Source of the DNA: Erysipelothrix tonsillarum DSM 14972
GTDB lineage: Bacteria; Bacillota_I; Bacilli_A; Erysipelotrichales; Erysipelotrichaceae
Length of the DNA stretch: 64,000 bases
NCBI RefSeq assembly: GCF_000373785.1
Contig: NZ_KB892380.1
Location: forward strand, 238,860 to 302,859
Direction of reading: 5' to 3'
The notes beneath the pieces are model-generated. The model saw only the letters and a program-made list of their open reading frames with translations. It was not told the origin of the DNA and did no database searches. This document shows positions 430-48,020 of the stretch, piece after piece (position 1 is the first letter of the stretch; each line of letters starts with the position of its first letter). The position numbers and the translations under genes are program-made.

Positions 430-1299
430 TTATTCAATAATATCAAGCAATTCTAAAATACGGTTTAAATCTTCATCATCATCAAATGAAATGGTAACTT
501 TATTGTTGGTGATGTTAACACGTGTTTGTAGACGGCGCTCAAAAAGTGATTGCGCATACTCGTATTCCTTATTGCGAACCTTTGGTTCAATGGGTTTAAC
601 ATCTTCTTTATTAATGAGACGTTCTGCTTCTCGAACCGATAATTTTTTGTTATATATTTCTTCAGCAATACGCTCAATTTCTTTTGGATCTTCAATTGTT
701 ACTAATGGGCGAACATGACCCATGGTTAATTTATTTTCACTAACCATTTCTTGAACCGATTTTGGAAGTCTTAGCAGACGAAGTAAGTTCGTAATATGAC
801 TTCGAGACTTGCTTACACGCTTTGCAACTTCTTCTTGGGTTAAGCCCAAACGATCAATAAGGGAACTGTATCCCATCGCTTCTTCAATAACATTTAAATC
901 TTCACGTTGAACATTCTCAATGATCGCAATTTCCATCATCTGTGAATCATCGAAATCAACCACGATTGCGGCAATTTCATCAATTTTGGCACGCTTTGTT
1001 GCACGTAATCGGCGTTCACCAGCAACCAGTTCGTAACCTTTGTTGGTTTCTCGAACTAAAATCGGTGTGAAAAGTCCATGAGTTGAAATTGATTGTGATA
1101 ATTCTTGTAACTTGTCTTCGTCAAAATGACGACGAGGTTGATAAGGATTCGTACGAATATCTTTTACTTTAAGGCTTGTTTTTACCCCAGTAAATTCATC
1201 ATTATTGCCTTGTTGGATATCTTCTAGAACTGATGTTACATCATCACCGAAGATTGCACCAAGTCCACGACCTAATCGATTACTATCTTTCTCTGCCAT
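430..1299 (-). CDS. parB: Chromosome partitioning protein ParB (Spo0J)
   Basis: ParB is the CTP-dependent clamp that loads at parS and spreads to organise the origin region and recruit SMC. The 289-residue protein has the N-terminal CTP-binding domain with GERRLRATK and ENVQREDLN motifs, a central helix-turn-helix (TQEEVAKRVSKSRSHITNLLRLLRL), and a C-terminal dimerisation domain rich in Glu/Asp. The ATG at 1299 is chosen because GGAG lies 8 bases upstream; a GTG nine bases earlier is in frame but too close to that site. The start overlaps the soj stop by 17 bases. Helix residues SRSHIT and the following MGHVRPL fit ParB rather than Noc specificity. Matching parS sites are at 42170 and 44366. 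Confidence 0.95.
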   Translation of the reverse strand: MAEKDSNRLGRGLGAIFGDDVTSVLEDIQQGNNDEFTGVKTSLKVKDIRTNPYQPRRHFDEDKLQELSQSISTHGLFTPILVRETNKGYELVAGERRLRATKRAKIDEIAAIVVDFDDSQMMEIAIIENVQREDLNVIEEAMGYSSLIDRLGLTQEEVAKRVSKSRSHITNLLRLLRLPKSVQEMVSENKLTMGHVRPLVTIEDPKEIERIAEEIYNKKLSVREAERLINKEDVKPIEPKVRNKEYEYAQSLFERRLQTRVNITNNKVTISFDDDEDLNRILELLDIIE

Positions 1300-2080
1300 T
1301 CGAGTCACTCCGTTTCTTATTATATGATAAGACTTCTTTCGCTAGAGATGCATATGCTTTAGCGCCTTCCGATTTTAAATCATATTCGAAGATTGAGTTT
1401 CCACGAGAAGGAGCTTCAGACAACTTAACATTTCTAGGGATATTACTCTTATAGACACGTTCTTTAAAATATTTACGAACTTCTTGTTGAACTTCCACAC
1501 TCAATCGAGTACGTACATCAAACATCGTAAGTAAAACGCCTTCTATTTTTAAATCTGGATTAAACAGCTTTTGTACGAGGCGGATTGTAGATAATAACTG
1601 TGTTAATCCTTCCAATGCATAATATTCACATTGCACAGGTATAATGACTGAATCCGCAGCCGTCAATGCATTTGTATTCAAAAGTCCCAATGATGGCGGA
1701 CAGTCTATAATTATATAATCATAGTCTTCCTTTGCCTTAATCAATTTATTCTTTAAAAGACGTTCACGACCAATCTTGAATTCAACCATTTCCAGGTCTG
1801 CACCCGCAAGATCAATCGTTGCAGGAATTAAATCCATGGGTGGAGTATTCAAAGTCATTTTAATGTCACTTACTTCTTTTTCAGAAAGAATTAAATCATA
1901 GGTACTATCTTTAATGGCCATTCTATTTGCACCGACACCTTGTGATGCATTTCCTTGGGGGTCAAGGTCAACTAATAGAACTTTTTGGCCAAGGTAGGCT
2001 AAACCGGCTGATAAATTTATACTTGTCGTAGTTTTACCAACGCCACCTTTTTGGTTAGCTACAGCGATTATTTTCCCCAT
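1283..2080 (-). CDS. soj: ParA-family ATPase Soj
   Basis: Soj is the partner ATPase of ParB; in the Bacillus system it also regulates DnaA. The 265-residue protein opens with the deviant Walker A motif KGGVGKTT at residues 11-18, has the switch motif DLDPQGNAS around residue 40, and the Walker B-like IIIDCPPSLG around residue 120. Length and order are typical of chromosomal Soj proteins. It lies between noc and parB on one leftward transcript, 29 bases after the noc stop, with an AAGGATG ribosome binding site. Confidence 0.95.
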   Translation of the reverse strand: MGKIIAVANQKGGVGKTTTSINLSAGLAYLGQKVLLVDLDPQGNASQGVGANRMAIKDSTYDLILSEKEVSDIKMTLNTPPMDLIPATIDLAGADLEMVEFKIGRERLLKNKLIKAKEDYDYIIIDCPPSLGLLNTNALTAADSVIIPVQCEYYALEGLTQLLSTIRLVQKLFNPDLKIEGVLLTMFDVRTRLSVEVQQEVRKYFKERVYKSNIPRNVKLSEAPSRGNSIFEYDLKSEGAKAYASLAKEVLSYNKKRSDSNGRER

Positions 2081-2109: not shown

Positions 2110-2865
2110 TTATTTAGGGAAGCGTACCGTGATGATAACCTCATCATCCGTTTCTTCCATATCATGTTTTACCGTAATTCCTGTTTTCTCGATCATGCCG
2201 ATTGATTGTTTAATTGTATTAATTCCAATCTTAATATGTTGAGAGATACCACGTGTTACAACTTTTTTCTTGCGTGGTTTGTTAATGAGCGTTTCCGTTT
2301 CTTTAACATTTAGTTTTTTATTCAGAATTTCATCTAAAACTTCTTCAGTTTTTTCTTTTTCAACACTGAGTAATGCACGCGCATGACGTTCTGTAATCTT
2401 ACGCTCACCCAATGCCTCAAGTACTGGCTCCGGCAATTCAAGGAGTCTAATTTTATTGGCAATTGCGGATTGTGACTTACCCACTTTTGTGGCTAGTTCT
2501 TTTTGAGTGATTTTTTGAATCCTTAAAAGGTCTCGGTATGCTTTTGCTTCCTCTAACACACTTAAGTCTTCACGTTGAATATTTTCAATAAGTGCCAATG
2601 TTGCACTCTTATTATCATCAATATTACTGATAATGCATGGAACTTCCGTAAAACCAAACATTCGCATCGCACGATATCGACGTTCACCCGCAATAATTTC
2701 ATATTCATCTGTCTCGTTCACTTCACGAACTACAATCGGTTGAAGAAGGCCATTTTCACTAATCGATTGTCCCAATTCCAACAAACTCTCATCGTTAAAA
2801 GTTAGCCGCGGTTGATTACGGTTAGGTTTAATTTTTTCAATAGCTATTTCTCTACGATCAATCAT
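2110..2865 (-). CDS. noc: Nucleoid occlusion protein Noc (ParB paralogue)
   Basis: This second ParB-like protein (251 aa) adjoins rsmG, the usual place of noc in Bacillota. It keeps the CTP-binding motifs IAGERRYRAM and ENIQREDLS. Its DNA-recognition segment reads SQSAIANKIRLL followed by ITERHARALL; the Gln, Lys and Arg at these points match the published Noc-type specificity positions, unlike parB in this operon. The ATG at 2865 is chosen for its strong GGGAGG site 5 bases upstream; an upstream in-frame ATG at 2904 lies inside rsmG without such a site. With this start, the protein begins at MIDRREIAI and lacks the N-terminal amphipathic membrane-targeting helix known in Bacillus Noc. It overlaps rsmG by 8 bases. 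Confidence 0.85.
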   Translation of the reverse strand: MIDRREIAIEKIKPNRNQPRLTFNDESLLELGQSISENGLLQPIVVREVNETDEYEIIAGERRYRAMRMFGFTEVPCIISNIDDNKSATLALIENIQREDLSVLEEAKAYRDLLRIQKITQKELATKVGKSQSAIANKIRLLELPEPVLEALGERKITERHARALLSVEKEKTEEVLDEILNKKLNVKETETLINKPRKKKVVTRGISQHIKIGINTIKQSIGMIEKTGITVKHDMEETDDEVIITVRFPK

Positions 2866-3574
2866 GGTTCCTCCCAGACAGTGGTGTCTTCTTAATTTTA
2901 GCATAACTTCTTGGATACTTATGTGAAGCCGATTTTACTTTAGTAATCTCTAAATTGTAACGGTCACCCATCAGCTCATCACTGAATTTATGAGTTTCAG
3001 TCAGTTCTCCGCCGAGAATTTTTATGGCTTTCAAAGAATCTTCATATTCTTCGATTCCTTTCGATCCTTTCATTGCTAAAAATACGCCTCCTACTTTCAC
3101 AAAAGGAAGGCATAGTTCGCTCAAAATATCGAGATATGCAACAGCACGTGCGGTTGCAACATCAAACGATTCTCGAAGATCACCAATTACATCTTCGGCA
3201 CGTCCATTAATAACAACAACATTTTTGATTCCACACTCGTTTACAACACGTTCTAAGAAATTGGTGCGTTTCGTTGTTGGTTCAATACATGTAACGTGTA
3301 CATCTGGTCGCGCGATTGCGAGTACAATTCCCGGAAACCCGGCGCCGCTACCAATGTCAGCAATTCGGCTCTTTTCCTTAATTAATGGTGATATAAGCAA
3401 TGAGTCATAGAAATGTTTCAAGAAAATCCCTTCATCATCATCAATACCCGTTAAATTTAAGACTTTATTCACTTCTTGAATAAGATTCTTGTACGATAAA
3501 AATTGTTGTTTCATATCTTCTGAAACAACAATTCCCAACGCTTCAATTTTACTAATAAATTCTAAAAAATTCAT
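2858..3574 (-). CDS. rsmG: 16S rRNA (guanine527-N7)-methyltransferase RsmG (GidB)
   Basis: RsmG methylates N7 of G527 in 16S rRNA using S-adenosylmethionine. The 238-residue protein has the Rossmann-type SAM motif ADIGSGAGFPGIVLAI near residues 70-85, the family motif NLTG near residue 40 (VLNLTGIDDD), and ATARAVAYLDIL in the second half. The start has a strong GGAGG site. It is the first gene of the leftward rsmG-noc-soj-parB operon, a promoter for which is visible about 85 bases upstream. Confidence 0.95.
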   Translation of the reverse strand: MNFLEFISKIEALGIVVSEDMKQQFLSYKNLIQEVNKVLNLTGIDDDEGIFLKHFYDSLLISPLIKEKSRIADIGSGAGFPGIVLAIARPDVHVTCIEPTTKRTNFLERVVNECGIKNVVVINGRAEDVIGDLRESFDVATARAVAYLDILSELCLPFVKVGGVFLAMKGSKGIEEYEDSLKAIKILGGELTETHKFSDELMGDRYNLEITKVKSASHKYPRSYAKIKKTPLSGRNHD

Positions 3575-4049: not shown

Positions 4050-6202
4050 GGGCTTGGTGAAAATTGCGTTTCGCTCATCAATTTAGGAACAGTGATTTCA
4101 TAAATAATTGCTGATTCCATCGTACTGCTTTGATTTCTTTCCATCTGTTCTAAATCTCTCATAATTTGCATAACCTCACGCTCATGTCTTAGACGATTAT
4201 CCAAATCTTGCCTTAATGCAGCTTCCAAGTGAATCTTTTTTTCATTCTCAATTGCATTTAAAATAAAATCGGATTCCTCGAACCAATGATGTTGTTCATC
4301 ACTATCAGAAATTTCAAAGCCATCAATACTCGGTATCATAAACAAATTTTCTTTGTTTTCAACTATAGAACCCTGAACGTCAATCAGATTCAATGTCTGT
4401 TCAAGACTGCTTAAGTCTGTAACACGATTAATATCTTTTAGTGCTCCACTCGGGTTGTTGGAATTGATTTCGGAAACTTTAGGGGTGATTGCGTTCCCAT
4501 CTACATACAAATCAAAGTACTTTGGCTTAAACTGTTCTTCAAACTCAATTTTTCTTACTTCATAAGCAATGCGATTTTTACGATCTTGTTCAAGGATTTG
4601 TTCAATATTTTTCCGTTTGATAATCTCGCGTTGCAATAAAGCCTGATAACCGTCTTCTGGTAAAAAACTTGGCTGATCATCAATACTATATCCATCCATA
4701 AATACTATTTCTGGTAATAAGATATTCTTGGGTTCTTCGTGTTCCTCTTCTCGGATCACAAAGCTGTCAATCGACAACAACGTTTCATTATCCAACTTTA
4801 TCGGTGTTTTGGGACTTTCATGCAATATAAACCCTTCGATATCCAAGAGTTCTTCGGGATTGATTTTATTTGCCGATAAAGGTTTGATAACTTCTACAAA
4901 AACATCATCTTCTTCTTTTTTAGGTTTGAATGCTTTTTCAATCTCAAAATGCAATGGTTGAATAATGCGGTCAATATACAGTTTAGAATCCGTCGATACA
5001 CTGAAAAATTTATCTCGTTCACCAACAATTAAGGATGGATTTTTTGATGCATTGACTTTAAACGTCACGTTACTTTGGTTCAAGTCTACCGTTTGCTTGA
5101 TATGCGTTGGTTGCTCATTCTGTAAAAGATATATATCAAGAACACTGAATTCTTTTGCATCGGGATGGTTTAGAATATTGGGTCCCCACTCAATACTAAA
5201 TACTTTATCAATGTATCGTTCTACATTAATTTGGGTAATATTCTTAAGTTCAACTTCATCCAAAGTTATCGTTAAATTTGAATTATCAAGATTAAATCGC
5301 TTAAGTTTATAGACTGTTTCTAAATCTATTGTCTCTAGATCTTCAAAAATAACATTTCCATCTTTTAGTATTCCTTTGATTTCTTTGTTTTTATCATTAA
5401 CAAGGATTATTTCTCCAGTTAATAAATTAACGTTTTCTCCCTTGAGAGGGATTATTTTTTGAATCTTTGGACGAATATAGAATGTAAATTCTGAGTCATT
5501 AACGATTTTCTTCTCTATCTTTATTAAATCATTATCTTCTGTAATAATATCGAACACATACGGCTTATTTTTTTCATCATATTTATTCGTGATAAATGAA
5601 TAATTTGAGCGTGATTGCCGCATATTGTGCTTGGTTCGAAGGCTCGACGATTTAACACCGTTTGCTGTAAGTATAAATGGGATTGCTTCAACGTTTTTAA
5701 TCTCACCTTCCCGAATGACACTAAACTTTATTGTTTGATTTTTAATTCTAATGATATTTAGAATATTATCCGTTTGAATGACACGATATTCTGCATAATT
5801 ATCTGTATCTTTATGAATCAAAAAACTATATTTCTTATCATATACATTATGAGGTTCGCGTTTTAAATCAAGTGAATCTCTTACGACTAAATTATCAATT
5901 GTGATTGTCCTTGTATTTTTAGTTAGATTGGTGATTTTCCCAATTTCAATGGATAAATTATCCTTAACATCCTCCTGCATACTGAGTGTGATTGGTTCAT
6001 CTCCACTTTCCATCCCAAACCACTGAATGGTGTATGTTTTTGACCCACTTATACAGGAAGTGGGACTGTTACAGATTCCACGCATATTGTTTTGATTGTC
6101 CATATTTGGAAATTCAAAACCAACATCAGCATGAATTGATTCAGGATTATAAACTAGAAAAAGTAATGAAAATGCTACAAAAATAAAAACTTTACGTATC
6201 AT
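4010..6202 (-). CDS. Secreted surface protein, probably frameshifted before its LPxTG anchor
   Basis: The 730-residue product starts with a signal peptide (MIRKVFIFVAFSLLFLVY, likely cleavage after IHA near residue 25) and has a GGAGGGG ribosome binding site. Two stretches beginning YTIQW (near residue 57) and FSIEW (near residue 345) resemble Cna protein B-type beta-sandwich repeats used as stalks in Gram-positive surface proteins. The last 150 residues are strongly charged and probably helical (around RQDLDNRLRHEREVM). It has no membrane anchor in this frame and stops at 4010, while the LPNTG anchor lies in the next frame. Either the gene is inactivated, or it is switched by slippage, or the sequence has an error. 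A terminator follows the joined gene. The gene lies between rsmG and mnmG, which are neighbours in many relatives, so it may be an insertion. Confidence 0.75.
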   Translation of the reverse strand: MIRKVFIFVAFSLLFLVYNPESIHADVGFEFPNMDNQNNMRGICNSPTSCISGSKTYTIQWFGMESGDEPITLSMQEDVKDNLSIEIGKITNLTKNTRTITIDNLVVRDSLDLKREPHNVYDKKYSFLIHKDTDNYAEYRVIQTDNILNIIRIKNQTIKFSVIREGEIKNVEAIPFILTANGVKSSSLRTKHNMRQSRSNYSFITNKYDEKNKPYVFDIITEDNDLIKIEKKIVNDSEFTFYIRPKIQKIIPLKGENVNLLTGEIILVNDKNKEIKGILKDGNVIFEDLETIDLETVYKLKRFNLDNSNLTITLDEVELKNITQINVERYIDKVFSIEWGPNILNHPDAKEFSVLDIYLLQNEQPTHIKQTVDLNQSNVTFKVNASKNPSLIVGERDKFFSVSTDSKLYIDRIIQPLHFEIEKAFKPKKEEDDVFVEVIKPLSANKINPEELLDIEGFILHESPKTPIKLDNETLLSIDSFVIREEEHEEPKNILLPEIVFMDGYSIDDQPSFLPEDGYQALLQREIIKRKNIEQILEQDRKNRIAYEVRKIEFEEQFKPKYFDLYVDGNAITPKVSEINSNNPSGALKDINRVTDLSSLEQTLNLIDVQGSIVENKENLFMIPSIDGFEISDSDEQHHWFEESDFILNAIENEKKIHLEAALRQDLDNRLRHEREVMQIMRDLEQMERNQSSTMESAIIYEITVPKLMSETQFSPSPWRPKQMIQNKLN

Positions 6203-17635: not shown

Positions 17636-18481
17636 CTATTTATTCTCGTGATAGTAAGAATAGAGTTCATTTTTAGAAACACCATTCTCTTTTGCCACAG
17701 AAGAAATTGAACGCGAAACAGAATTTCCTGCATTGATCTGTTCCTCAATGTGTCTGATTAAATCATCGAAACTTACTTCCACTTCTGTAGAATCTGCCTC
17801 AATAACAATTACAAACTCACCTTTTATCGTTTCAACGGACTCCATGACTTCAGTAACCGTACCACGTATAAACTCCTCATGCATTTTTGTTAACTCACGC
17901 ACAAGGCAAATCTTTCGATTACCTAACACATCATACACGATTTCTAATGTCTTTTCTAATTTATGAACTGATAAATAATAGATTGTTGTCATCGGTAAAT
18001 CTTTATGTTGGATGAGTTGTTTCTTAAGCTGACTTTCTTTGTGTTCCATAAACCCCATGAAAGCAAACGGTTGGACAATTAATCCTGATGCAACAAGGGC
18101 ATTTAAGAACGCACTGCTCCCCGAAATTGGTACAACGTTATATCCCGCTTCAATAACATCCCGTACGAGTGTTTGCCCTGGATCGGAAATAAGTGGATAG
18201 CCTGCATCACTGATTAAACCAATATTTTTACCGCTTGCAAGCAGTTCTATAATCCCTTTTGTTGATTCCTGTTCGTTATGCATGTGGTGACTAATCATTT
18301 TGGTTTCAATATCAAAGTGCGAGCAAAGTTTACGTGCGTTGCGCGTATCTTCTGCGGCAATAATATCAACGGTTTTGAGAATATCAATTGCGCGTGGCGT
18401 CATTTCGTTTAAGTTCCCAATTGGCGTCGCAACAAGAAACAGAGTTGGTTTATCATTTTTAAAGCTTTGTTGTTTTATCAT
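17636..18481 (-). CDS. rsmI: 16S rRNA (cytidine1402-2'-O)-methyltransferase RsmI
   Basis: RsmI adds the 2'-O-methyl group at C1402 in the 16S rRNA decoding centre. The protein (about 281 aa) has the tetrapyrrole-methylase fold signatures VATPIGNLNEMTPRAI near the N terminus, AEDTRNARKL near residue 48 and SDAGYPLISDPG near residue 90. An AGGAGA site precedes two consecutive ATG codons; the second (18481) has the better spacing. It follows holB leftward with only a palindrome between them. Confidence 0.93.
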   Translation of the reverse strand: MIKQQSFKNDKPTLFLVATPIGNLNEMTPRAIDILKTVDIIAAEDTRNARKLCSHFDIETKMISHHMHNEQESTKGIIELLASGKNIGLISDAGYPLISDPGQTLVRDVIEAGYNVVPISGSSAFLNALVASGLIVQPFAFMGFMEHKESQLKKQLIQHKDLPMTTIYYLSVHKLEKTLEIVYDVLGNRKICLVRELTKMHEEFIRGTVTEVMESVETIKGEFVIVIEADSTEVEVSFDDLIRHIEEQINAGNSVSRSISSVAKENGVSKNELYSYYHENK

Positions 18482-18501
18482 CATATTCTCCTAAAATAGA
18501 T

Positions 18502-18527
18502 AAACCTTTAATCTAGATTAAAGGTTT
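18502..18527. repeat. 26-bp perfect palindrome between holB and rsmI
   Basis: The arms AAACCTTTAATCT and its complement meet with no spacer. The palindrome contains the holB stop codon and ends about 20 bases before rsmI. In RNA it would form a hairpin, but only a weak T run follows on the minus strand, so it may be a weak terminator or a protein-binding site. Confidence 0.6.
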
Positions 18528-19468
18528 TTGTAGTATTTCGTAAGTTCATAAGCAAATTGATCAATGACAAGATTCACATTAACTCCAGGACGTATCCGAT
18601 CTTTCATGCTCAAGGCAATCTGAAGAATGTTAATGCTATCTTTTTTTGGTAGGTCTTTTGTACGTATCTTGATGCTTTCTTCACGTTGTCCCTGCGAGGA
18701 AAGTACAAATTCAAAAAGTTCAAAAAACAGTACAAGTCGCTCACGGTCCATCCGTTTTTTCTTAATACCCTCGACCTGTAAGGTAAGAATTGCACTCAAA
18801 TAATCACCCTGGTTTAAACTATCCAAAACATCAAAGAAAATAGAACTACTCTCTTTATACGACGCATCCGTACTTTGAGCTTCTATTTCTTCAAGGTTTT
18901 GATTCATTCTCGATAATAAGTATGCATCAATGCGGTCCATCCCTTGGTTGCATGCCGTTTCAAATAAAATTTGATGATTCATCGGTTCAAGTTGAATGGT
19001 TAAGCAACGTGAGCGAATGGTTTCGAGGACACGGTTTTCCTTACTTGTGGTAAGAATTGCTGTAATCTCCCCTTCAGGTTCTTCAAGAAATTTAAGGAGA
19101 CTATTCATCGCCTCAACCGTCGCATTATCTACATCTTCAATGATATAAACTTGATGGCCATCCGTCTCAATAGATGTTTGACTAAAATACTCTTTAAGAT
19201 CGATTACTTCTGCTTTTTTTATGCTCTGTTCTTTACCGCTAAGTATTCGAACATCAGCATGCTGGTTCGAGTGGACGCGCTGGCATACTGAACACGTACC
19301 ACATGCACCAATGCTTTGTTCTCGACACATTAAACTCATTGCCATATATTTCGCAAACGCTAAAGCACCCTGATCACCTACGATGAGATACGCATGCGAA
19401 ACACGATGTTTCTCCTGTTGGCGATGAAATAAATTCAGTGCTTTCGTTTGATATTCAAGATTACTCAT
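18518..19468 (-). CDS. holB: DNA polymerase III delta' subunit
   Basis: Delta' is the stator of the clamp loader. The 316-residue protein shows the AAA+ fold with a degenerate P-loop (GDQGALAFAK, as expected for delta'), a zinc-binding Cys cluster (CREQ, CGTCSVC, residues 49-63), and the sensor region LLKFLEEPEGEITAILTTSK around residue 125. It overlaps tmk by 8 bases, the standard arrangement in Bacillota. Confidence 0.9.
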   Translation of the reverse strand: MSNLEYQTKALNLFHRQQEKHRVSHAYLIVGDQGALAFAKYMAMSLMCREQSIGACGTCSVCQRVHSNQHADVRILSGKEQSIKKAEVIDLKEYFSQTSIETDGHQVYIIEDVDNATVEAMNSLLKFLEEPEGEITAILTTSKENRVLETIRSRCLTIQLEPMNHQILFETACNQGMDRIDAYLLSRMNQNLEEIEAQSTDASYKESSSIFFDVLDSLNQGDYLSAILTLQVEGIKKKRMDRERLVLFFELFEFVLSSQGQREESIKIRTKDLPKKDSINILQIALSMKDRIRPGVNVNLVIDQFAYELTKYYKNL

Positions 19469-42003: not shown

Positions 42004-42032
42004 TTGACTTAAAATACCTTTATCGCTATAAT
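42004..42032 (+). promoter_or_regulatory. Promoter of the serS T-box leader
   Basis: TTGACT and a perfect TATAAT are separated by 17 bases, placing the transcription start near 42039. Confidence 0.8.
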
Positions 42033-42038
42033 TTACTT

Positions 42039-42238
42039 AACTCGTTGAGAGGGATTAATATAATAGTTTTATTTAAGAGAGATGATGGTAGGTGTAAATC
42101 ATTATAAAACATTATAGTTCCACCCTGGAGAGATTAATTTCGGAAGACAACCGTTATCTGTTAAAGGTATGTTCCACGTGGAACATATGAAGAAGGGTGG
42201 CACCACGTTCATACGTCCCTTAAGAGGTGTTTTTTTTA
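42039..42238 (+). ncRNA. T-box riboswitch leader of serS (serine)
   Basis: The leader has the conserved T-box AGGGTGGCACCACG at 42194-42207. An antiterminator forms from AAGGG/CCCTT and CG/CG with the T-box bulge inside. A competing CACC/GGTG hairpin followed by T8 (42201-42238) is the terminator. Stem I features (GATGATGGTAGGTG, then the complementary side) lie in the first half. The bases TCC at 42119-42121, followed by ACCCTGGAG, are the likely specifier, a serine codon. Uncharged tRNA-Ser would stabilise the antiterminator and turn on serS. The helix just before the T-box is formed by the parS palindrome. Confidence 0.92.
42168..42187. promoter_or_regulatory. parS: parS centromere site inside the T-box leader
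   Basis: The 16-mer TGTTCCACGTGGAACA at 42170-42185 is a perfect palindromic match to the parS consensus TGTTNCACGTGNAACA; the symmetry extends to 20 bases. A soj-parB pair is present 40 kb to the left. The site lies in transcribed leader sequence, at the place of the T-box stem III. Confidence 0.9.
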
Positions 42239-44365: not shown

Positions 44366-44381
44366 TGTTTCACGTGGAACA
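44366..44381. promoter_or_regulatory. parS: parS centromere site between the Cof gene and SRP RNA
   Basis: TGTTTCACGTGGAACA matches the parS consensus at every fixed position. It is intergenic, 2.2 kb from the first site and 14.7 kb to the right of dnaA. Confidence 0.88.
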
Positions 44382-44431: not shown

Positions 44432-44437
44432 AACTAT

Positions 44438-44521
44438 GCTACAACAACATAATCTAATTAACCAGGTCAGGGCAGGAATGCAGCAGCCTTACATTAGCTC
44501 TTATGTGTGTTGTGGCTCTTT
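44438..44521 (+). ncRNA. ffs: Signal recognition particle RNA (small 4.5S type)
   Basis: The apical domain IV is complete: GTCAGG, then a GCA-GGAA-TGC hairpin, then AGCAGCC (44466-44488), the binding site of Ffh. The two ends pair over a long helix (GCTACAACA at 44438 with TGTTGTGGC ending at 44516, plus ACATAA/TTATGT and CTAAT/ATTAG). TCTTTTTG then ends the RNA. The total of about 80 bases means it lacks the Alu domain found in Bacillus scRNA. It lies just before tadA, close to dnaX, as in relatives. Confidence 0.95.
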
Positions 44522-44535
44522 TTGTATATAAGGGG

Positions 44536-46178: not shown

Positions 46179-48020
46179 ATGTCGTATCAATCGTTATATC
46201 GAAAATATAGACCTGCACATCTTGATGAAGTTGTCGGGCAAGAACATGTAGTGAACGTACTTAAAAATTCTGTTACTAAAAACAAGATATCACACGCATA
46301 TCTTTTTTGTGGTCCACGTGGAACCGGTAAAACATCAATTGCGAAGTTGTTTGCCCGTGCGGTGAATTGTGAAAACCCAGATCAAGTAATTTGTGGGGTC
46401 TGCGATAACTGCAAGGCTGTCGCTGATGGAACACATCCTGATCTCATTGAGATTGATGCCGCAAGCAATAATGGGGTTGATGAAATCCGTGGTTTAATTG
46501 AAAAAGTAAAATACACACCAATTTTAGGGAAGTATAAAGTTTATATTATTGATGAGGTTCATATGTTGTCACAAGGTGCATTTAATGCGCTTTTAAAGAC
46601 GCTTGAGGAACCACCAAGTCATGTCGTATTCATACTGGCAACCACAGAAATTCATAAAGTGCTACCAACAATTATTTCCCGTTGTCAACGTTATGATTTC
46701 AATCGTATTGGCGAAAAAGATATTGCGAATCGACTTGATTACGTTCTTGAAAGTGAACATGTAGAAGCGGAAGCGGGAGTTTCCAATCTTATCGCAACGT
46801 TATCGGGTGGTGGGTTAAGAAATGCGCTAACCATCCTTGAACAAGCCATTGTACTTGCAGATGATCAGATTACAATTTCGCAGATTTATGATACAAATGG
46901 AATTATAACCGTTGAAGATAAAATAAATTTATTTAATAGTATTTTAAATCAAGATATGGAAGTTTTGGTAGATCAAATTACTCGTATGAATGAAAAGAGT
47001 GTAAATATTGATCGACTTATGATGGATTTAGTGAGTGGTCTAAAAGATTCCATTATTTATACCCATACGAAGTTAAGCAACCTAGTAAACGAAAATGAAA
47101 TCGAATTTATAAAATACTTAGATAACTCAATCCATGTAAATGAACGACTTGTTATAATTGAAACATTACTTGGATATGCGGATAAAATGAAGTTTTCTCA
47201 AAACCAAGCAACGTATTTTGAAGTTGCGATGGTTGATGTCTACAATTCTTTTAGTAATACTGTACATCAACCGAAAGTGATTTTAAATCAACCTAAAGAG
47301 AATACGGTGTCAGCAGAAGCAATATATCGAGCTGAGAACAATATGAAAGAGAATGCTAACAATTCAGCACTATTCGATAAAACCGAACCTATGAAAAAAA
47401 ATAAACCGGTTGAAACAAACGATGAAAAAATAAAACAAGAAGTAACTGACGATGTTCTTGAAGATACTGAAATCGATGAAATGGAAATCACAATAGAAAA
47501 AACAGTTTTAGAAGCAAATAATACACAAGCACCGGATGCCTTATTAGCAGTTGAGGATGTAGTCCAATATATGGTTTCTGCGGATAAAGCTATGCGAATT
47601 AAAGATGAAGCAGCCTATCAAAATATAGATCGTTATAAGATTGATCTTACGTGGGCAAGACCCAGTCGTCTAATAAGTGGTGGTAAACTTGTTCTAAGTA
47701 GTAGTTTCTTTGCGGTATTTGCACTTTCAAATGAGGCAGCTGTAAGAGAAGTTGCGGAACTACGCAATCAAGGAGAACTTTATCAGTTCTCAGAAGTACT
47801 GTTTGGAGAACAAAAACAAATATTAGCAATCACACAAAATATGTATACAGAAGCCGTTTCTAAATTTCTCCAAATGACTAAAGATGGTAATTTGCCAGAA
47901 CCTTTAGAACCAAAAGTTTATACGTTTGGGACAGAAACAAAAGAAGAAGAAACAAAAGATGAGAGTTTAGAAAAAGTAAAAGAACTTTTTGGAGAGATTG
48001 TTGAAATTGTTGAATCGTGA
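46179..48020 (+). CDS. dnaX: DNA polymerase III gamma/tau subunit
   Basis: DnaX is the motor of the clamp loader. The 613-residue protein has Walker A GPRGTGKTSIAKLFA near residue 45, a four-Cys zinc module (CENPDQVICGVCDNC, residues 64-78), Walker B VYIIDEVHMLS and SRC sensor motif IISRCQRYDF. The middle region (residues 370-450) is acidic and repetitive in composition, followed by a tau-type C-terminal domain (residues 460-613). A TGA-TATAAT extended -10 box lies about 20 bases upstream of the start. Confidence 0.96.
   Translation: MSYQSLYRKYRPAHLDEVVGQEHVVNVLKNSVTKNKISHAYLFCGPRGTGKTSIAKLFARAVNCENPDQVICGVCDNCKAVADGTHPDLIEIDAASNNGVDEIRGLIEKVKYTPILGKYKVYIIDEVHMLSQGAFNALLKTLEEPPSHVVFILATTEIHKVLPTIISRCQRYDFNRIGEKDIANRLDYVLESEHVEAEAGVSNLIATLSGGGLRNALTILEQAIVLADDQITISQIYDTNGIITVEDKINLFNSILNQDMEVLVDQITRMNEKSVNIDRLMMDLVSGLKDSIIYTHTKLSNLVNENEIEFIKYLDNSIHVNERLVIIETLLGYADKMKFSQNQATYFEVAMVDVYNSFSNTVHQPKVILNQPKENTVSAEAIYRAENNMKENANNSALFDKTEPMKKNKPVETNDEKIKQEVTDDVLEDTEIDEMEITIEKTVLEANNTQAPDALLAVEDVVQYMVSADKAMRIKDEAAYQNIDRYKIDLTWARPSRLISGGKLVLSSSFFAVFALSNEAAVREVAELRNQGELYQFSEVLFGEQKQILAITQNMYTEAVSKFLQMTKDGNLPEPLEPKVYTFGTETKEEETKDESLEKVKELFGEIVEIVES

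Follow-up and report, generated by a model that had tools for sequence, protein, structure and literature searches.

A T-box review (PMC7583486) regards stem III, for many years taken to be a variable linker, as essential to the discriminator by which tRNA charging is sensed. According to the same review, the stem and loop of this element are variable, and conserved purines are located on both sides of it (5'-RRRxG-stem III-AA-3'). For proteins of the ParB family, PMC7383237 provides a residue rule, in which R/G is the signature of proteins that bind parS, and Q/K/R that of proteins that bind NBS.

The locus described here can be compared to each of these systems. As in chromosomal ParABS systems, it possesses an exact match to the 16-bp parS consensus near dnaA, with a second exact parS nearby and a ParB with R173/G201 encoded. 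It differs in that the putative ParB site forms part of a regulatory RNA structure, with flanks that follow the RNA pairing. As in other serS leaders of the T-box family (RF00230), the leader scores above the curated cut-off, includes the antiterminator core and is located directly upstream of serS; however, its stem III is a putative site for a DNA-binding protein and is near-fixed in sequence, where the review (PMC7583486) reports a variable stem and loop. Finally, a Noc-like paralogue is encoded beside parAB, a feature shared with the Noc/NBS system, but the site itself is parS-type and not NBS. Among the open-access papers that were searched, no description of a parS within a T-box was found.

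The window, that is the whole 64-kb stretch of DNA that was analysed, possesses only two perfect 20-bp palindromes, at positions 42168–42187 and 18505–18524. The first of these holds an exact parS and is found inside an Rfam-scored T-box leader between gyrA and serS (Table 1), which confirms the starting point of an earlier, sequence-only reading of this DNA. I propose, with a probability of roughly 0.86, that a single element is under selection in two capacities, as parS DNA and as T-box stem III RNA, at a position where a palindromic hairpin is tolerated. As double-stranded DNA, it would be an origin-proximal parS onto which ParB is expected to load; as RNA, it would constitute the distal half of the serS T-box stem III, a helix that would form the charging-sensing part together with the antiterminator. 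A transcript of parS, being perfectly palindromic, pairs with itself, and the sequence of stem III is unconstrained provided that pairing is retained, which makes the two codes compatible. The 16-bp core would be fixed by selection for ParB binding, and the complementarity of the flanks by selection for the RNA helix. In the simplest reading, no regulatory coupling between the DNA and RNA roles is needed. This proposal is based on the position of the site, its conservation, the covariation of its flanks and the presence of ParB-family genes, all of which are observed, and from which I infer ParB occupancy and T-box function.

Table 1. Features of the window, with positions numbered from its first nucleotide.
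Feature	Position	Strand	Basis and remarks
parB (Spo0J-type)	430–1308	-	PF02195 match; best PDB relative Spo0J 6sdk, E 1.8e-57
parA/soj-like ATPase adjoining parB	1283–2080	-	GKGGVGKTTTS motif in ORF; family named by reading
noc-like ParB paralogue	2110–2904	-	PF02195 match; best PDB relative Noc 7ng0, E 3.1e-56
dnaA	29688–31055	+	ORF list, named by reading; marks origin region ~12.5 kb from parS site
Promoter-like TTGACT-17-TATAAT before leader	42004–42032	+	11/12 consensus matches
T-box riboswitch leader of serS	42036–42223	+	Rfam RF00230, 98.9 bits, E 1.5e-20, cut-off 93
Stem III hairpin, 9 bp, loop ACGU, closed by G-U pair	42167–42188	+	Rfam alignment and folding
20-bp perfect palindrome TATGTTCCACGTGGAACATA	42168–42187	.	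Direct reading of sequence
parS TGTTCCACGTGGAACA	42170–42185	.	Exact consensus match, 0 mismatches
T-box core GGGTGG of antiterminator	42195–42200	+	25 nt after parS start
serS (seryl-tRNA synthetase), 428 aa	42258–43544	+	ORF list, named by reading
Second parS TGTTTCACGTGGAACA	44366–44381	.	Exact match; shortly before SRP RNA gene 44435–44522
Weak third parS-like site	46310–46325	.	2 mismatches; within dnaX reading frame

With up to 3 mismatches allowed, three parS-like matches are found in the window, against 0.17 expected, and none of 100 shuffles reaches three. Exact matches to TGTTNCACGTGNAACA in the 1.93-Mb assembly (97% complete) are limited to two, at positions 42170 and 44366 of the window, 2.2 kb apart. 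The 16-mer of the weak third site recurs identically, at a comparable distance, in the congener G095. The gene order around the site (names by reading) is dnaA, dnaN, further genes, recF, gyrB, gyrA and serS; with dnaA ~12.5 kb off and the second exact site close by, the palindrome is part of an origin-proximal parS cluster. A chance origin of the parS in the T-box is ruled out by the shuffles and by the pattern controls reported below. The other perfect palindrome of the window, CCTTTAATCTAGATTAAAGG, is located in the gap between the minus-strand genes 17636–18484 and 18518–19468.

The product of the parB gene possesses the parS-class contact residues R173, G201 and R204 (Caulobacter numbering, assigned by motif position), and that of the noc-like gene possesses the Noc-class residues Q173, K179 and R201, with E and not K at position 184. 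Under the residue rule of PMC7383237, a parS reader and a Noc therefore appear to be encoded side by side. That the palindrome is a Noc site can be ruled out, as it is parS-type, and the NBS-like sites are poor and located elsewhere: only three are found in the window, each with 2 mismatches and none at 42168–42187. Beyond the window, a ParB_N gene over the cut-off was identified in 29 of 30 genomes chosen among carriers of the parS/T-box leader; the ParB_N family also covers Noc. No ParB_N match was found in the carrier G622 (locus L342), a 0.9-Mb genome in 150 contigs; its serS T-box with parS but no ParB_N match may reflect either a lost ParB or an assembly gap.

At the RNA level, the Rfam alignment pairs the palindrome as the hairpin immediately before the antiterminator, which is stem III of the model, and folding gives the same 9-bp hairpin with an ACGU loop, so the proposal that parS forms this stem was borne out. 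Folded alone, the stem III segment reaches −10.9 kcal/mol (z −2.7), with 3 of 200 shuffles folding as well, and the minimum-energy fold of the whole leader retains the hairpin. Read by eye, a putative UCC (Ser) specifier is present at 42119–42121, with serS downstream, and stem III is framed as AAAG-stem-GAA, a near form of the published purine motif; the pattern GAGTG...AA is likewise seen by eye around stem III in many relatives. A T-run follows the leader, but the terminator fold is weak (−7.4 kcal/mol, z 0.05), and a scan of the window leader for intrinsic terminators found none. The promoter-like match upstream of the leader indicates that the parS site is probably in transcribed DNA, although such matches also occur in shuffles (mean 1.8). 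The SerRS encoded downstream is 79–83% identical to its nearest named relatives, which are Erysipelothrix records.

A census of serS leaders was made in the family. A SerRS match was obtained in 141 of 155 genomes, and 133 of these were used (8 left out). A motif rule recognized a T-box in 96 of the 133 leaders, only some of which were also scanned with Rfam; parS is present at stem III in 46 of them, and absent in 50. The two groups are cleanly separated by the parS-like sequence that best fits the consensus ahead of the core: it is exact in 43 leaders and has 1 mismatch in three, 2–4 in none, and 5–8 in the remaining 50. Among the 37 leaders set aside by the motif rule, Rfam scored 9 missed T-boxes, included in the totals: two with parS (G037 and G080) and seven without, two of which, both in genus g56, hold a degraded parS-like sequence. 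Altogether, 105 T-box leaders were identified, with parS in stem III in 48 (18 genera) and no intact parS in 57 (30 genera). Four motif T-boxes (G050, G179, G181 and G183) have no obvious CGTTA upstream, and only G179 of these is over the Rfam cut-off.

Stem III sequences vary widely among the 50 parS-less motif T-boxes. Nonetheless, 41 of the 46 parS-less leaders that were folded form a simple hairpin, 5 bp or longer, within the 40 nt before the core, and the mean stem is 8.6 bp in parS-less leaders versus 11.3 bp in those with parS, for the same folded segment. In the parS-less genus g46 (for example G084 and G045), little or no stem III is seen by eye, which suggests that the helix is dispensable in some T-boxes. 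The sequence-only reading had asked if the helix keeps the parS sequence or only its pairing, and the answer is divided: in the parS lineages the core keeps its sequence and the flanks only their pairing, whereas the parS-less lineages possess other sequences, mostly hairpins. It had also held that a different stem III in relatives would count against it; of the 48 genera in the sample whose serS has a T-box, 30 do show such a difference, but the 18 others carry parS, and none is mixed.

These observations bear on the possibility that the palindrome is an RNA stem III only, with a parS likeness that is coincidental and was spread by descent. Most T-boxes form a helix at stem III, a palindrome of any sequence would fold, and descent predicts the absence of mixed genera in the sample. 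I nonetheless regard this as extremely improbable, given the diversity of stem III in the 50 parS-less T-boxes when compared to a parS at 0 or 1 mismatch in the 46 others. The recurrence of the parS/T-box arrangement in further families, with reversed-pattern controls at 0, also argues against it, as does the presence of additional parS sites within about 3 kb in all 12 carriers searched. In addition, changes in the core fall mostly at N positions, which is partly by construction, and three carriers keep parS while breaking an RNA pair.

The point on N positions is derived from the 86 distinct T-box-embedded parS sites present in the fetched loci, whose core is TGTTTCACGTGAAACA in 74 cases and TGTTCCACGTGGAACA in 4. 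These sites were gathered with a pattern that permits few core changes (3 of the 86 deviate), and their uniformity is therefore partly by construction; the unbiased count is the mismatch census of the 96 T-boxes, above. The three carriers are L240, L264 and L342, where the RNA pair is broken at a free N position of an otherwise kept parS, indicating that the upper stem is not strictly kept. In G025/G072, the deviant last core base leaves a G-U pair in the RNA.

The flanks of the core show a different pattern. The mean uninterrupted flank pairing is 4.09 bp at the T-box sites, versus 2.03 at 197 other parS sites, and shuffling by swapping the 3' flanks (2000 shuffles) gives a mean of 1.29, with a highest value of 1.92. 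The difference holds when counted by genus (4.35 in 17 genera versus 2.30 in 31 genera, Mann-Whitney p 7e-5), and where a genus offers a T-box site as well as another parS site, pairing extends further at the former in 10 of 10 genera (Wilcoxon p 0.001). The first flanking pair is T-A at 40 of the 86 sites and A-T at 39; the second is mostly A-T, with T-A, G-U and G-C also found. A flanking pair is absent altogether at 5 sites.

This flank complementarity, above that of other parS sites and of shuffles, and within the same genera too, speaks against a second alternative, where the palindrome is parS only and happens to sit in a leader, the RNA helix being an unselected by-product. Any transcribed parS would yield a hairpin, and the flank pairing at other parS sites is already above shuffled (2.03 vs 1.29). 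Furthermore, parS is also present just behind serS in many genomes, so that the borders of serS are a general parS neighbourhood. However, the distance from the parS start to GGTGG is confined to 25–31 nt in the 46 census carriers, and parS-less relatives mostly retain a hairpin at the same place; an unselected helix is thus quite unlikely.

The dual selection of one element as parS and stem III appears to offer a clear example of two selections acting on one sequence, by a partition protein on DNA and by RNA folding, whose signatures can be separated into a fixed core and covarying flanks. The element illustrates how a leader can accommodate a palindromic protein site unharmed, and it renders the evolution of parS and that of the T-box inseparable in any analysis of these bacteria.

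I also surveyed the spread of the arrangement with a composite pattern (parS, 4–16 nt, T-box core), in overlapping draws of genomes from the family, the order and the class. With a stricter core, it is found in 72 of 272 genomes of the family draw, where several genomes of genus g32 are without a match. With a looser core, it is found in 107 of 294 genomes (22 of 78 genera) of the order draw, and in 27 of 395 genomes (17 of 193 genera) of the class draw. The reversed-pattern control gave 0 in all three. The survey thus covers genomes of a single class. The Rfam T-box cut-off is passed by 17 of 20 further loci with parS in a putative T-box, while L014, L022 and L030 are below.

All 86 embedded sites are located upstream of serS, as established by tblastn for 65, by their retrieval as serS-upstream DNA for 19, and, for 2, by the initial codons of serS where the contig ends. 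No parS was seen in the T-box of a non-serS gene among 14 loci that were read (the G202 match not included): 12 of these are serS T-box leaders, and two (L333 and L341) have no T-box context, as is also the case for L345. The latter, from a 1.5-Mb genome of the same class (G739), possesses two exact parS on the minus strand, at 1501 and 1549, that is 48 bp start to start. In the Clostridia loci, parS is often a few kb from serS, mostly without a T-box motif.

The SerRS proteins encoded behind this leader are diverse. In family f2 (two genomes), the SerRS is 61–63% identical to that of the window, and in families f7, f10, f13, f18, f24 and f25, the leader is present with a SerRS only 33–38% identical. 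Individual cases of the same leader with a SerRS at ~33–38% identity include G007, G062, G266, G267, L319–L321, L336–L340, L342 and L343. Such a low identity behind a kept leader suggests either that the gene was replaced in place or that SerRS of a second type is present.

This persistent association with serS, at 86 sites and even with a SerRS only 33–38% identical, raises the possibility that the two roles are coupled. ParB would then be a timed RNA polymerase roadblock in the serS T-box, encountered once stems I and II have been transcribed but ahead of the choice for or against termination, and would link serine starvation to segregation; alternatively, serS transcription would clear or gate ParB. 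As parS is ~130 nt past the predicted start and before the antiterminator, polymerase would cross it with the switch on or off. In P. aeruginosa, an excess of ParB reportedly represses promoters beside parS (PMC5521831). If coupling is true, serine-tRNA charging and origin segregation would communicate via shared bases. However, within the same family, stem III holds no intact parS in 57 of the serS T-box leaders, and serS is simply near oriC here, and I therefore consider coupling to be unlikely, if not negligibly so. In any case, this is a natural site that polymerase should cross at every initiation, which makes interference between ParB loading and transcription testable.

As to the history of the trait, its distribution on a SerRS tree of 90 rows requires 6 changes, compared to a shuffled mean of 30.4, with none of 500 shuffles as low; the row for G025 in this tree is not a SerRS, and without it (89 rows) 7 changes are required. 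The trait is strongly clustered on the SerRS tree, which cannot tell gain from loss. Within a parS-less clade, genus g56 (G088 and G217, loci L237 and L244) possesses a parS-like stem III with 3 and 2 mismatches and a shifted RNA pairing, which looks like a possible decay intermediate. Because several outside families carry the trait, and because of this decayed-looking parS, I tentatively favour an old origin with later losses. Since no sampled genus is mixed, the parS-less genera appear to be distinct lineages from which parS was lost or always absent. An apparent exchange of SerRS in some lineages (31–38% identity) makes this protein an imperfect guide to the history of the trait.

Finally, many relatives possess a second parS 4–90 bp behind the serS stop codon, and parS sites thus bracket the gene. 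A search of 12 carriers that allowed up to 1 mismatch found another parS in every one, about 3 kb away or less and on the same contig. Together, these make the borders of serS, near the origin, look like a local centromere. The sites behind serS are common, but no consistent T-run was seen by eye, so that they are probably not terminator hairpins. In Erysipelothrix urinaevulpis (L039), the parS sites at 4915, 7120 and 7176 share changed centres (CATG), and five parS sites with shared CATG centres are also found in an uncultured Ruminococcus (L106). These shared centres hint at a parS consensus that is locally shifted.
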